A DNA stretch of 38,454 bases from a virus. How positions within the stretch are numbered: the stretch's first letter is position 1; each line of letters begins with the position of its first letter. The notes beneath the pieces are model-generated. The model was not told the origin of the DNA. It saw only the letters and a list, made by a program, of their open reading frames with translations, and did no database searches. Of the stretch, positions 23,031 to 28,222 are shown piece by piece. The position numbers were made by a program, and so were the translations under genes. The stretch is from IMG/VR virus record IMGVR_UViG_3300046516_000176, positions 1-38,454 of that record. One strand, written 5' to 3'.

Positions 23031-23474
23031 GTGAACATCCCTGACGCAGCCTACGCAGTTGCTCACGACTACCCGGGCGGCACGGAGTCACTGGCTCCGC
23101 GTATGCCGATGCCGGGCGCCGTGCTGCGCAACAAGGTCAACCTCAACAACACCACGCATCACCTGACGCTCGCTGAAGCCGTCCGCATGACGGATCTGAC
23201 TGATGACGAGCGCATCCTCGAGGCGTGGGCCCGGCATCGCGGCAAGGTGCTGATGGATATCCCGGCGCCTGAAAACTGCTCCGACGGCGAGGTCATCGAA
23301 CTGATGTCCGAGTCGATGAAGACGTTCGGCGACATAGGCGCGGCAATCACGGACACGTTTTCGGATGGTCGCGTTGAGTCCCACGAAGCGCGCCGCGTGC
23401 GCGACGTCATCTGGGCTCACCTCGGCAAGCTGTTCGGGCTGTCGAGCCGGATTGATGGCATGGCGGAGAAGTGA
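23031..23474 (+). CDS. CII-like phage regulatory protein, CP76 family (147 aa)
   Basis: Resembles the phage regulatory CII (CP76) family: MNIPDAAYAVAHDYPGGTES, LAPRMPMPGAVLRNKVNLNN, THHLTLAEAVRMTDLTDDER. In P2-like and other phages such proteins regulate early transcription or the lysogeny choice. The C-terminal part (about 85-147) is helical and phage-specific. GTG 23031 has AGGA 6 nt upstream. A 75-bp gap separates it from cro, where I see no gene. The stop lies 2 nt before the replication gene's ATG. Confidence 0.8.
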   Translation: MNIPDAAYAVAHDYPGGTESLAPRMPMPGAVLRNKVNLNNTTHHLTLAEAVRMTDLTDDERILEAWARHRGKVLMDIPAPENCSDGEVIELMSESMKTFGDIGAAITDTFSDGRVESHEARRVRDVIWAHLGKLFGLSSRIDGMAEK

Positions 23475-23476
23475 CC

Positions 23477-24517
23477 ATGGACCTGCCTCAGCCGTTCACC
23501 CCATCCGACTGCGATCTGCGCGACTTCGCATTCATGCCACTCGACGTTCAGCGTCTGCGCGACAGCGATCTAGCCGCGCTCGAGTCGCCTGAGTGCTGCT
23601 GGTCTGCGGTGTTGCTGTGGTGCGCATCGTGGCACCAGGTGCCGGCCGCTTCATTGCCTGATGACGATCGCGTGCTCGCGCAGCTGGCCGGTTTTGGCAG
23701 AGTGGTGAAGGAATGGCAGCGTGTCCGCGAAGGCGCATTGCGCGGATGGATTAAATGTTCAGATGGTCGCCTCTATCACCCGGTTGTCGCCGATAAGGCT
23801 TGCGACGCCTGGGAATCGAAGTTTCAGCAGCGCTGGAAATCAGAGTGCGCGCGCATCAAAAAACACAATCAGCGTCACGGGACAAAGGTCAAATTCCCGA
23901 CGCTCGATGAGTTCCTGTCCCCTGATTACCGTGATCCTGTCCCTAGGGACATTGCGCATTTGTCCCCTGGGACAACTAACGACGGTCCCCAAGATGTCCC
24001 CCGGGAAACACCATCCAAGAGAGAAGGAGACGGAGACGGAGAGGGACACAGAGACAAAGACAAAACCCTAGAAGCGCCGGTGGTAGATCACACCACTGCG
24101 CCCGAAGAAACGCCGGCGCCTCTGCCTTCGGAAATCGTTCCGAACAGCCGTGCTGCTGCGATTTCGGTCCTGATGCGTCGCAACGGCGTCGAAGGCTGCA
24201 ACTCGGCGAATCCGATCGTGCAGGAGTGGGCGGCGAATCCGAAGGTCACCGATGACCTCCTGCTGACGGCCGCCGACATGGCGAAGAAGCGCGAAGTGCT
24301 GCGTCCGGGCCCGAACTACCTCGCGCCGATCATCGCGCAGCTGCTCAACCCGCCGAAGCCGAAGCAAAGCGACGACGCGTGGCGGCGCACCGACAAAGGC
24401 ATCGAAGCCAAGGCGTCGCAGCTCGGAATCTATGCCCGCCCGGGCGAAACGCATGACGCGCTGCGCGAGCGTTGTGAGTCGGAAATCCGCAAGCGCGCAC
24501 AGGGAGTCGCAGCATGA
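23477..24517 (+). CDS. replication protein, DUF1376/YdaU-type (346 aa)
   Basis: Probable replication initiator. The N-terminal part (about 15-100) matches the DUF1376 pattern: WCASWHQVPAASLPDDDRVL, LAGFGRVVKEWQRVREG, KCSDGRLYHPVVADKACDAW. A disordered charged linker follows (about 150-210, with KREGDGDGEGHRDKDK), then a C-terminal helical domain (about 225-340). The linker-encoding DNA holds an iteron array (23879-24048), as in lambda gene O. ATG 23477 is preferred (GGAG at 8 nt) over GTG 23471. It overlaps the next gene by 4 bp. Confidence 0.82.
   Translation: MDLPQPFTPSDCDLRDFAFMPLDVQRLRDSDLAALESPECCWSAVLLWCASWHQVPAASLPDDDRVLAQLAGFGRVVKEWQRVREGALRGWIKCSDGRLYHPVVADKACDAWESKFQQRWKSECARIKKHNQRHGTKVKFPTLDEFLSPDYRDPVPRDIAHLSPGTTNDGPQDVPRETPSKREGDGDGEGHRDKDKTLEAPVVDHTTAPEETPAPLPSEIVPNSRAAAISVLMRRNGVEGCNSANPIVQEWAANPKVTDDLLLTAADMAKKREVLRPGPNYLAPIIAQLLNPPKPKQSDDAWRRTDKGIEAKASQLGIYARPGETHDALRERCESEIRKRAQGVAA
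23879..24066. other. candidate replication origin: TGTCCC iterons plus purine-rich tract
   Basis: Eight exact copies of TGTCCC or its complement GGGACA occur at 23879, 23916, 23938, 23946, 23961, 23969, 23995 and 24043. Forward copies at 23916, 23938, 23961 and a one-mismatch copy at 23984 are 22, 23 and 23 bp apart, about two helical turns. Two are halves of palindromes (TGTCCCTAGGGACA and TGTCCCCTGGGACA). A strongly purine-biased tract follows at 24015-24066. All lie in the linker coding region of the replication gene. Confidence 0.65.
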
Positions 24518-26526: not shown

Positions 26527-26957
26527 TGGATCGAATCGACGAACTGCTATTGCAATGGTACGAGTGGCAGGCAGGCTACACGCCGAACCTCGACTACGGC
26601 GGCGCCGATCCGGCCTGCCGCGATTTCCGCATCAGCCGGCAATGGATGGATTACGACGACCTCGACGCGGAAGTCGAGATGAACCTGCGCGCGGCAGTCG
26701 GCAAGGTGATCGAGCCGATGATCCTGAAACTTGACATGCGCTCCCGGCTCGCGATCAACACCGCCATGCGCAACTTTGGCGCGGGCGCATCGGTCTGGGT
26801 CAATCCGAGGCATGCTGACACGCAGGATGCGGACTACGAGCGCGCCAAGGCGATTCTTTGCCCGCAGATGGTCGCTGCAGGGTTAGTCGAAAAAGGGACT
26901 TGTAAACCCGTTCGATATGGAGTAGATTTCCGATCCGTGGCGTACTCGCACGCCTAG
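26526..26957 (+). CDS. last gene of the early operon, candidate late regulator (143 aa)
   Basis: Belongs in appearance to a conserved phage family found at the end of the early operon (LQWYEWQAGYTPNLDYGGAD, ACRDFRISRQWMDYDD, LAINTAMRNFGAGASVWVNP). The middle may be a helix-turn-helix. Its place, immediately before two strong terminators and the late genes, is that of the lambda Q antiterminator, so a Q-like role is a reasonable guess but not shown. ATG 26526 has GGGG 5 nt upstream. Confidence 0.6.
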   Translation: MDRIDELLLQWYEWQAGYTPNLDYGGADPACRDFRISRQWMDYDDLDAEVEMNLRAAVGKVIEPMILKLDMRSRLAINTAMRNFGAGASVWVNPRHADTQDADYERAKAILCPQMVAAGLVEKGTCKPVRYGVDFRSVAYSHA

Positions 26958-26978
26958 AGAAAACTCATACCCCATTCG

Positions 26979-27012
26979 AAGCCCCGCCGGTTCGCGCCGC
27001 GCGGGGCTTTTT
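26979..27012 (+). terminator. rho-independent terminator at the end of the early operon
   Basis: Nine-bp stem AAGCCCCGC/GCGGGGCTT (26979-26987 with 27001-27009), 13-nt loop and a T run. It lies 21 nt after the last early gene. Confidence 0.85.
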
Positions 27013-27095
27013 CGTTTCCGCCAGTCACGCAACGGTCGGCGTTGCAGCTCACTCCCGGACTGGCTCACCGTGTCTCCACGCGTCCCCTCGCGTTT

Positions 27096-27118
27096 GCCCC
27101 GCTCGTCGGGGCTTTTTT
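27096..27118 (+). terminator. second rho-independent terminator before the late genes
   Basis: Six-bp stem GCCCCG/CGGGGC (27096-27101 with 27107-27112), 5-nt loop and six T. It lies about 135 nt before the first late gene. Confidence 0.85.
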
Positions 27119-27253
27119 ATTCGAGCCTTCCGCAAGGCGTGAGTGCGATAACCGCGCCAGCTGTCGACGTCTTGGAAGCCTGGTGTCTCCGCCGGCTCGC
27201 CGGAACTCGCTCAGGCGCGGGTGACAGCAACCCCTAATCCCTTGGAGCAAATC

Positions 27254-27844
27254 ATGAGCGATCCGATTGCAGAAGCCGCAGCAAGCCTGAACGATGCAGC
27301 GCCGAGCAGCACCGAGCCGCAGCAGCCTGCGCCCGAGGTGGCGCCGGTGGGGGAGCAGTCTTCGTCGCTCTCGTCTGGCGAAGCTGGTTCGGGTGAAGCG
27401 GGAAACGCTGCTGGGGGTGCCTCGTCGGACGCGCAATCCCTGGCTCAGAACTCTGTCGTCGATGCCGCAGCTACGGCCAGCGCTGAGGTGGCGCAGCCGG
27501 GGGAGGCCGTCCAGACTCTGAGCGCTTCTACCGAATCCTCGTTGACGCCTTCCGTAGGTGACGCGGGAAACGCCGATGCGGGCACGTCGCCCGCTGGTGC
27601 TGCTACGCCTGCCATTACGGGAAACGTGCTGGTGAACGCGGCACCGGTCGTTGATGAGCCAGTGATCACTGAGCCCGCCGTCGAACAGCAGCCAGAGCCG
27701 GAAGCCGAGCCGATGGCGCGCGAGTGGCACCTGATGTCGTTGGAAGCGAAGTTCGCCGCGGCGCTCGCCAAGTTGCGCAACGCGGAGCGTGTGTCGGTCG
27801 ATGAACTCGACGCGATCTATACGCACGTCAAGGCGGTGATCTAA
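27254..27844 (+). CDS. disordered Ala/Glu/Ser-rich protein at the head of the late operon (196 aa)
   Basis: First gene before the terminase. About 150 residues are low-complexity (Ala, Glu, Ser, Pro, Gln), e.g. STEPQQPAPEVAPVGEQSSS. Only the last 45 residues look folded (AREWHLMSLEAKFAAALAKL, VSVDELDAIYTHVKAV). ATG 27254 has GGAG 8 nt upstream; a longer frame to 27221 lacks one. It could be a packaging accessory or a structural protein. Function unknown. Confidence 0.6.
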   Translation: MSDPIAEAAASLNDAAPSSTEPQQPAPEVAPVGEQSSSLSSGEAGSGEAGNAAGGASSDAQSLAQNSVVDAAATASAEVAQPGEAVQTLSASTESSLTPSVGDAGNADAGTSPAGAATPAITGNVLVNAAPVVDEPVITEPAVEQQPEPEAEPMAREWHLMSLEAKFAAALAKLRNAERVSVDELDAIYTHVKAVI

Positions 27845-27847
27845 GCC

Positions 27848-28222
27848 ATGGCCGGCCGTCCGTCGAAGTACAAGCCCGAGTATGCGGAACTGGCAATGAA
27901 CTATTGCCTGCTCGGGGCGACGGACGTTGAGATTGCCCAGTTCCTGGGCGTGAGCCTGCGCACCGTGGCCGACTGGAAGGTCGTTCACGAAGACTTTGCC
28001 GAGGCGCTGACCACCGGCAAGGAAAAAGCCGATGCCAAGGTCGTGGGCGCGCTCTATCGCGGCGCGCTCGCCGGCAACACCACCGCGCAGATCTTCTGGC
28101 TGAAGAACCGCCGCAAGGAAGACTGGCGCGACAAGGTCGACCACGAAGTGGCCGGAAAAGACGGCGCTCCGATCCAATACGAGCGCGTCGAGCGTAAGAT
28201 CATCGACCCCAAGGCCGAATGA
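27848..28222 (+). CDS. terS: terminase small subunit (124 aa)
   Basis: DNA-recognition subunit of the packaging motor. N-terminal HTH: GRPSKYKPEYAELAMNYCLL, GATDVEIAQFLGVSLRTVAD; central helix EALTTGKEKADAKVVGALYR; conserved AQIFWLKNRRKEDWRDK near the end. It overlaps terL by 4 bp. In headful-packaging phages the pac site often lies in or near this gene. Confidence 0.88.
   Translation: MAGRPSKYKPEYAELAMNYCLLGATDVEIAQFLGVSLRTVADWKVVHEDFAEALTTGKEKADAKVVGALYRGALAGNTTAQIFWLKNRRKEDWRDKVDHEVAGKDGAPIQYERVERKIIDPKAE

Follow-up and report, generated by a model that had tools for sequence, protein, structure and literature searches.

The analysed window comprises the whole 38,454 bases of an IMG/VR virus record, and in gene content it corresponds to a temperate phage of the P22-like type. 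Among the encoded products are a DNA-ejection protein, an integrase, RecT, exonuclease VIII, YdaS/Cro-like and CII regulators, the terminase large subunit, a phrog_156 portal protein and the head closure protein Hc3. The cI/cro-cII operon contains a forward-strand gene of 348 amino acids with a GTG start (23471..24517), which we propose to encode the replication initiator. Its product had been described from the sequence as a protein of the DUF1376 type, and profile searches bear this out: PF07120 matches residues 21-108 with E 3e-8, at a score of 34.2 bits against the gathering cut-off of 30.1. The best PHROG match is phrog_22470, annotated as 'replication protein' (E 4e-47). Scans of the protein against Pfam and PHROG return only DUF1376 and phrog_22470, phrog_3992 and phrog_816, with no match to Phage_rep_O, the family of lambda O, and none to the RepA_N Pfam domain at E 0.01. 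A sequence search of the PDB yielded nothing relevant, and the 5' half of the gene has no DNA-level match in E. coli genomes. The neighbourhood of the gene in named phages is that of replication functions, the next gene encoding a DnaB-like helicase in phi297, a DnaC-type loader in Hali and D14L, and a primase in CF3a and Ostro.

In the AlphaFold2 model of the protein, a disordered linker (residues ~161-222) joins two folded domains. The N-terminal part (residues 1-155, encoded by 23471..23935 on the forward strand) combines a winged-helix-like domain with a long basic helix and is modelled with a pLDDT of 94. The C-terminal helical domain (residues 227-347, 24149..24514, forward strand) is a putative host- or helicase-recruiting part. 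Structure searches with the N-domain model give RepA_N plasmid initiators as the best matches, but these are weak (Z 4-5; Foldseek E 0.6-1.6), and the RepA_N lead in the structural alignments is only suggestive. The structure matches are all weak, and the absence of lambda O from them carries no information.

The DUF1376 gene harbours a dense cluster of a single hexamer. All eight exact copies of TGTCCC/GGGACA that had been reported within 170 bp are present between 23879 and 24048, at positions 23879 (-), 23916 (+), 23938 (+), 23946 (-), 23961 (+), 23969 (-), 23995 (+) and 24043 (-). The forward copies at 23916, 23938 and 23961 are spaced by 22 and 23 bp, as the preliminary description stated, and the one-mismatch copy that it placed at 23984 reads GGTCCC. 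It also noted that two of the copies are arms of palindromes, and two perfect palindromes are found: TGTCCCTAGGGACA at 23938..23951 and, 23 bp further on, TGTCCCCTGGGACA at 23961..23974. A third palindromic iteron of the array, TGTCCCCCGGGAAA at 23995..24008, is imperfect; no strand is assigned to any of the three. What repeats is the 14-bp palindrome as a whole rather than the bare hexamer. The iteron array proper spans 23879..24008 on the forward strand, where it includes the seven exact hexamers from 23879 to 23995 and the one-mismatch copy, and is conserved in relatives; the eighth hexamer, at 24043, is part of a polypurine tract with conservation of its own. The array DNA encodes residues ~137-193 of the protein. 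The earlier assignment of the array to the disordered linker therefore holds for its later part, but its first part encodes the end of the well-folded N-domain.

The clustering is far from what base composition or protein sequence would produce. The whole window contains 14 copies of TGTCCC/GGGACA against 15 expected, which leaves ~0.07 copies to be expected in a stretch of the size of the array, near the earlier estimate of ~0.1. No other hexamer in the window shows similar clustering. Redrawing synonymous codons with the protein preserved gave at most five copies in 20,000 draws, against the eight observed, and shuffling the codon order gave at most four; with any hexamer allowed, synonymous redraws reached a maximum of five in 5,000 draws. 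The hexamers of the array occupy all three codon phases, which points to a cause at the DNA level. This locus thus shows the arrangement of an iteron-type origin, in which repeats of a single site cluster at helical spacing in the initiator gene, here a putative one.

The preliminary description also mentioned a purine-biased tract following the hexamers, which proves to be a conserved part of the element. In the window, the tract occupies 24017..24064 on the forward strand (AAGAGAGAAGGAGACGGAGACGGAGAGGGACACAGAGACAAAGACA...), has a periodicity of ~6 bp and contains the GGGACA at 24043. We compared it with relatives comprising 80 viral sequences, 80 found by the N-domain alone (partly on the same contigs), 63 from bacterial genomes, and named phages. 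The typical form of the tract is (AGGGANA)n, as in CCAAGGGACAGGGAGAGGGACAGGG, with a period of 6 bp, sometimes 5 bp, and it directly follows the iterons. Of the 168 non-redundant genes, 146 have a tract of 18 nt or more and 111 one of 24 nt or more, the latter length being attained by 10.7% in the synonymous null. The tract persists in clades with different iterons. Some alpha-, beta- and gammaproteobacterial relatives show a 5-bp purine period, (AAGGG)n (L322, L328, L334, L341, L345, L348, L349). Synonymous codon identity between relatives rises to 0.88 and 0.80 over 24011-24064, compared with ~0.50 over the gene; parts of the iteron region reach 0.65.

Low-complexity peptide sequence in the linker (GQGQGQ, RDRDRD) could in principle generate such repeats as a by-product devoid of any function in DNA, and the peptide read from the purine tract is indeed a dipeptide repeat. 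The tract is, however, encoded in at least three reading frames, as KGQGQG, KTGTGTG or RDRDRD in different relatives, so that the peptide alternates between GQ, TG and RD repeats over unchanged tract DNA. Furthermore, both array and tract are lost in synonymous redraws, the hexamers use every codon phase, and the peak of synonymous identity coincides exactly with the tract. The synonymous nulls reject the protein-repeat explanation, to which we assign a negligible probability. Long protein repeats of 12 bp, of the (W/R)DSV- or DKV-type, do contain GGGACA by coding in three other loci (L086, L130, L146), which encode an unusual repeat protein.

The end of the tract is marked by a short A-rich patch (24047..24074, forward strand), which we propose as the unwinding element. 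Across the family, A+T content reaches 0.59 at the tract end, compared with 0.44-0.45 for the synonymous null. In 115 of 140 genes (17.3 expected), the tract end is also where the 40-mer of lowest stability in the gene is found. The adjacent, easily melted A+T-rich stretch of an iteron-type origin is accordingly found in the family. In the window genome the patch is weak, being modest and short, and the 40-mers starting at 24033-24035 are only nearly tied with the least stable one. It is conceivable, if on balance doubtful, that the polypurine (AGGGANA)n tract constitutes a distinct, previously undescribed origin module, which would act strand-specifically, guide the initiator or helicase loader onto one strand and direct the melting of the A+T-rich patch in the manner of DnaA-trios.

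Counting the hexamer in related DUF1376 genes, a check that had been suggested at the outset, shows the array to be widely shared. Among the first 80 viral relatives, more than 50 carry 6-14 copies in 200 bp, at the same gene position (around nucleotides 400-600). In 51 genes of the TGTCCC type, TGTCCC-N2-GGGACA predominates as the unit, with 52 pairs at distance 8, and the next unit follows 15 bp on, resulting in the 23-bp period; the sites fall in every codon phase and on both strands. Phage Magia carries the same array, and phi297 has the purine tract with a different repeat. Other DUF1376 clades have clusters of TTTCCG/CGGAAA or CTGTCCA in the same place of the gene and, less clearly, of GTGACA or CGTTAC. 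Relatives that conserve the protein without clustered hexamers had been named as evidence against an origin, and such relatives do occur in part: some lack TGTCCC clusters, many of them bearing another clustered hexamer at the same place together with the same polypurine tract, and some showing no recognisable repeat. With the purine tract masked, 81 of the 168 genes keep a significant cluster, the middle half of which start at gene nucleotides 405-448. In the remaining genes, about half, no cluster outside the tract is significant by itself, and the copies are few, diverged or unrecognised; the low number of copies is in part responsible for the missing significance.

The association of array and gene is also recovered from DNA without any protein information. 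We searched 398 genomes of one bacterial family and 398 of its phylum with the pattern TGTCCCN{1,2}GGGACAN{7,10}TGTCCC, which matched in 13 genomes, the reversed-pattern control giving no match. In 12 of the 13 the palindrome array lies inside an ORF of the DUF1376 family, and the exception (L375) is a lone site near an integrase rather than an array. Two of the 13 genomes had already been reached by the protein search. The stricter palindrome pattern was chosen for the genomes because a looser scan of viral contigs (three TGTCCC in ~66 bp) had matched mostly chance occurrences, protein repeats or other systems.

The type of iteron follows the phylogeny of the N-terminal, putatively DNA-binding domain. 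On the N-domain tree, the 52 rows with TGTCCC require 5 changes, against a mean of 24.6 upon shuffling, and none of 500 shuffles was as low; shared ancestry may account for part of this fit. The strongest differences between repeat types are at residues 120-140, in the basic half of the long helix, and at 68 and 71. The mapping of iteron specificity to residues 120-140 is a prediction, as the region also varies with phylogeny.

Clustered palindromic sites equally suit a repressor, and an array that is unique in the window and sits in a gene of the cI/cro-cII operon could be taken for an operator, at which the DUF1376 protein or a phage repressor blocks transcription of the gene, replication starting elsewhere. 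The iteron sites, however, lie ~400 nt inside the DUF1376 gene, far from any promoter-like sequence; they come together with a purine tract and A+T-rich patch for which an operator has no need, and the repeat type switches with the DUF1376 protein's own domain. We consider an operator in place of an origin unlikely, but autoregulation could exist alongside origin function. The palindromes could also form hairpins in the mRNA, making the conserved element an RNA structure. When the strand was folded with DNA parameters, it showed no excess stability over shuffles (z = -0.73), and the repeat units differ between clades with their position kept; the chance that RNA structure explains the element is minimal.

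TGTCCC arrays are not confined to DUF1376 genes. A different conserved TGTCCC/GGGACA array, with spacings of 12, 17, 13, 15, 13, 64 and 7, is found just upstream of terminase genes in enterobacterial lambdoid-type prophages (L082, L112, L114, L136, L158; e.g. L136:8808-8954), and looks like a terminase-binding, cosB-like site. The existence of such arrays in these unrelated prophages lends some appeal to reading the array in the window as a packaging (cos/pac) site or, by extension, as a partition or recombination site. The terminase large subunit gene of the window starts at 28219, though, ~4 kb from the array, which in relatives stays with the DUF1376 gene, and none of the window ORFs tested proved to be a partition gene. 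These alternatives we judge to be very improbable. TGTCCC arrays were further observed inside non-DUF1376 genes for replication initiators or helicase loaders (L124:772-955, L107:11638-11787, L123:7971-8116, L155:1433-1480, L094:1372-1424), suggesting that intragenic origins may be common among those families, and at the 3' end of primase-helicase (AAA_25) genes (L109:7405-7521, L119:10951-11082).

An iteron array, followed by a polypurine tract and an A+T-rich patch of low stability, is conserved within the DUF1376 gene, for the most part where it encodes the linker. The retention of the three elements in over a hundred related phages makes this very probably the place where replication starts. 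The proposal of the preliminary description, that an iteron array in the replication gene is the probable phage origin, is supported by nearly all comparative tests, GC skew excepted. The raw skew minimum at 23184 lies near the DUF1376 gene, where gene orientation also flips, but the detrended minimum lies elsewhere, and phages Magia and phi297 show no agreement, so that this check is uninformative. A circular 43-kb phage-like record from Herbaspirillum (NZ_CP034394.1, L358) carries a DUF1376 gene (26666-27826) that contains the complete array as well as a purine tract with nine GGGACA repeats. This complete-looking phage genome, listed as a 'plasmid', has no other annotated replication initiator; it may represent a phage-plasmid or, given its integrase, an excised prophage. 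With high confidence, we put forward 23879-24074 as a candidate phage replication origin and the gene that contains it as encoding the origin-binding initiator, both binding and origin activity being inferred from comparative analysis.

Initiation at such an origin might proceed as follows. Dimers of the N-domain of the DUF1376 protein would bind each palindrome, the basic C-terminal half of the long helix (residues ~120-140) presumably contributing to the choice of sequence. Several dimers at the 23-bp spacing would be aligned on one face of the DNA, and the resulting strain, perhaps together with single-strand binding along the polypurine strand, would open the adjacent A+T-rich patch. The C-terminal domain would then recruit the helicase loader, helicase or primase, which are encoded beside the DUF1376 gene in some relatives and here are probably supplied by the host. 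Placement of the origin inside the initiator gene would let initiator and target travel as one cassette. Under this proposal, members of the widespread DUF1376 family, so far of 'unknown function', would act as origin-binding initiators, and the origins of many proteobacterial prophages, with at least three iteron specificities, could be predicted directly from sequence. We found no publication that connects DUF1376 to an origin or GGGACA to the replication origin of a phage, an absence of little weight given the thin coverage of subscription journals.

In the bacterial oriC, DnaA boxes, which are double-strand sites, are followed by a short-period single-strand element, the DnaA-trios, and then by the unwinding region. 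The polypurine tract might be a single-strand element of this kind, an analogy that we offer only as an idea: its period is 6 bp, sometimes 5 bp, against the 3 bp of DnaA-trios, and there is no DnaA box near the array in the window. Origins inside the coding sequence of the initiator are known from several replicons. In the repABC plasmid p42d, the origin lies within repC, near an A+T-rich stretch (PMC3155836); in contrast to the DUF1376 genes, no iterons were found in repC, and the proteins are unrelated as far as tested, with no Pfam match. In lambda, as well as in the Stx phages P27 and 933W, the origin is located in the middle of the initiator gene and consists of palindromic iterons followed by an A+T-rich tract, the O proteins being dimers (PMC7466680). 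The resemblance to lambda noted at the outset, an intragenic origin with iterons and an A+T-rich tract in the linker-coding part, stands as far as the arrangement is concerned, though the first iterons fall in the stretch coding for the end of the N-domain. Shared with lambda are also the early operon beside repressor, cro and cII genes, and the adjacent helicase-loading gene in relatives. Unlike lambda, the DUF1376 protein has no sequence match to the lambda O families, its iteron is different and shorter, a conserved polypurine hexamer tract is added, and the A+T-rich patch is only short. The origin of pSK41 and pTZ2162 occupies the centre of rep, where it encodes the central linker of a protein whose N-terminal winged helix binds four Rep boxes and whose C-terminal domain contacts DnaG primase (PMC5703833). 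The putative DUF1376 origin is organised like those of RepA_N plasmids, and RepA_N initiators rank with the best structural matches of the DUF1376 N-domain, weak as these are; the DUF1376 system differs in having no Pfam RepA_N match, in a Z of only 4-5, and in belonging to a proteobacterial phage rather than a Gram-positive plasmid. DUF1376 would thereby represent a third, apparently unmatched family of initiators with an intragenic origin, beside lambda O and RepA_N.
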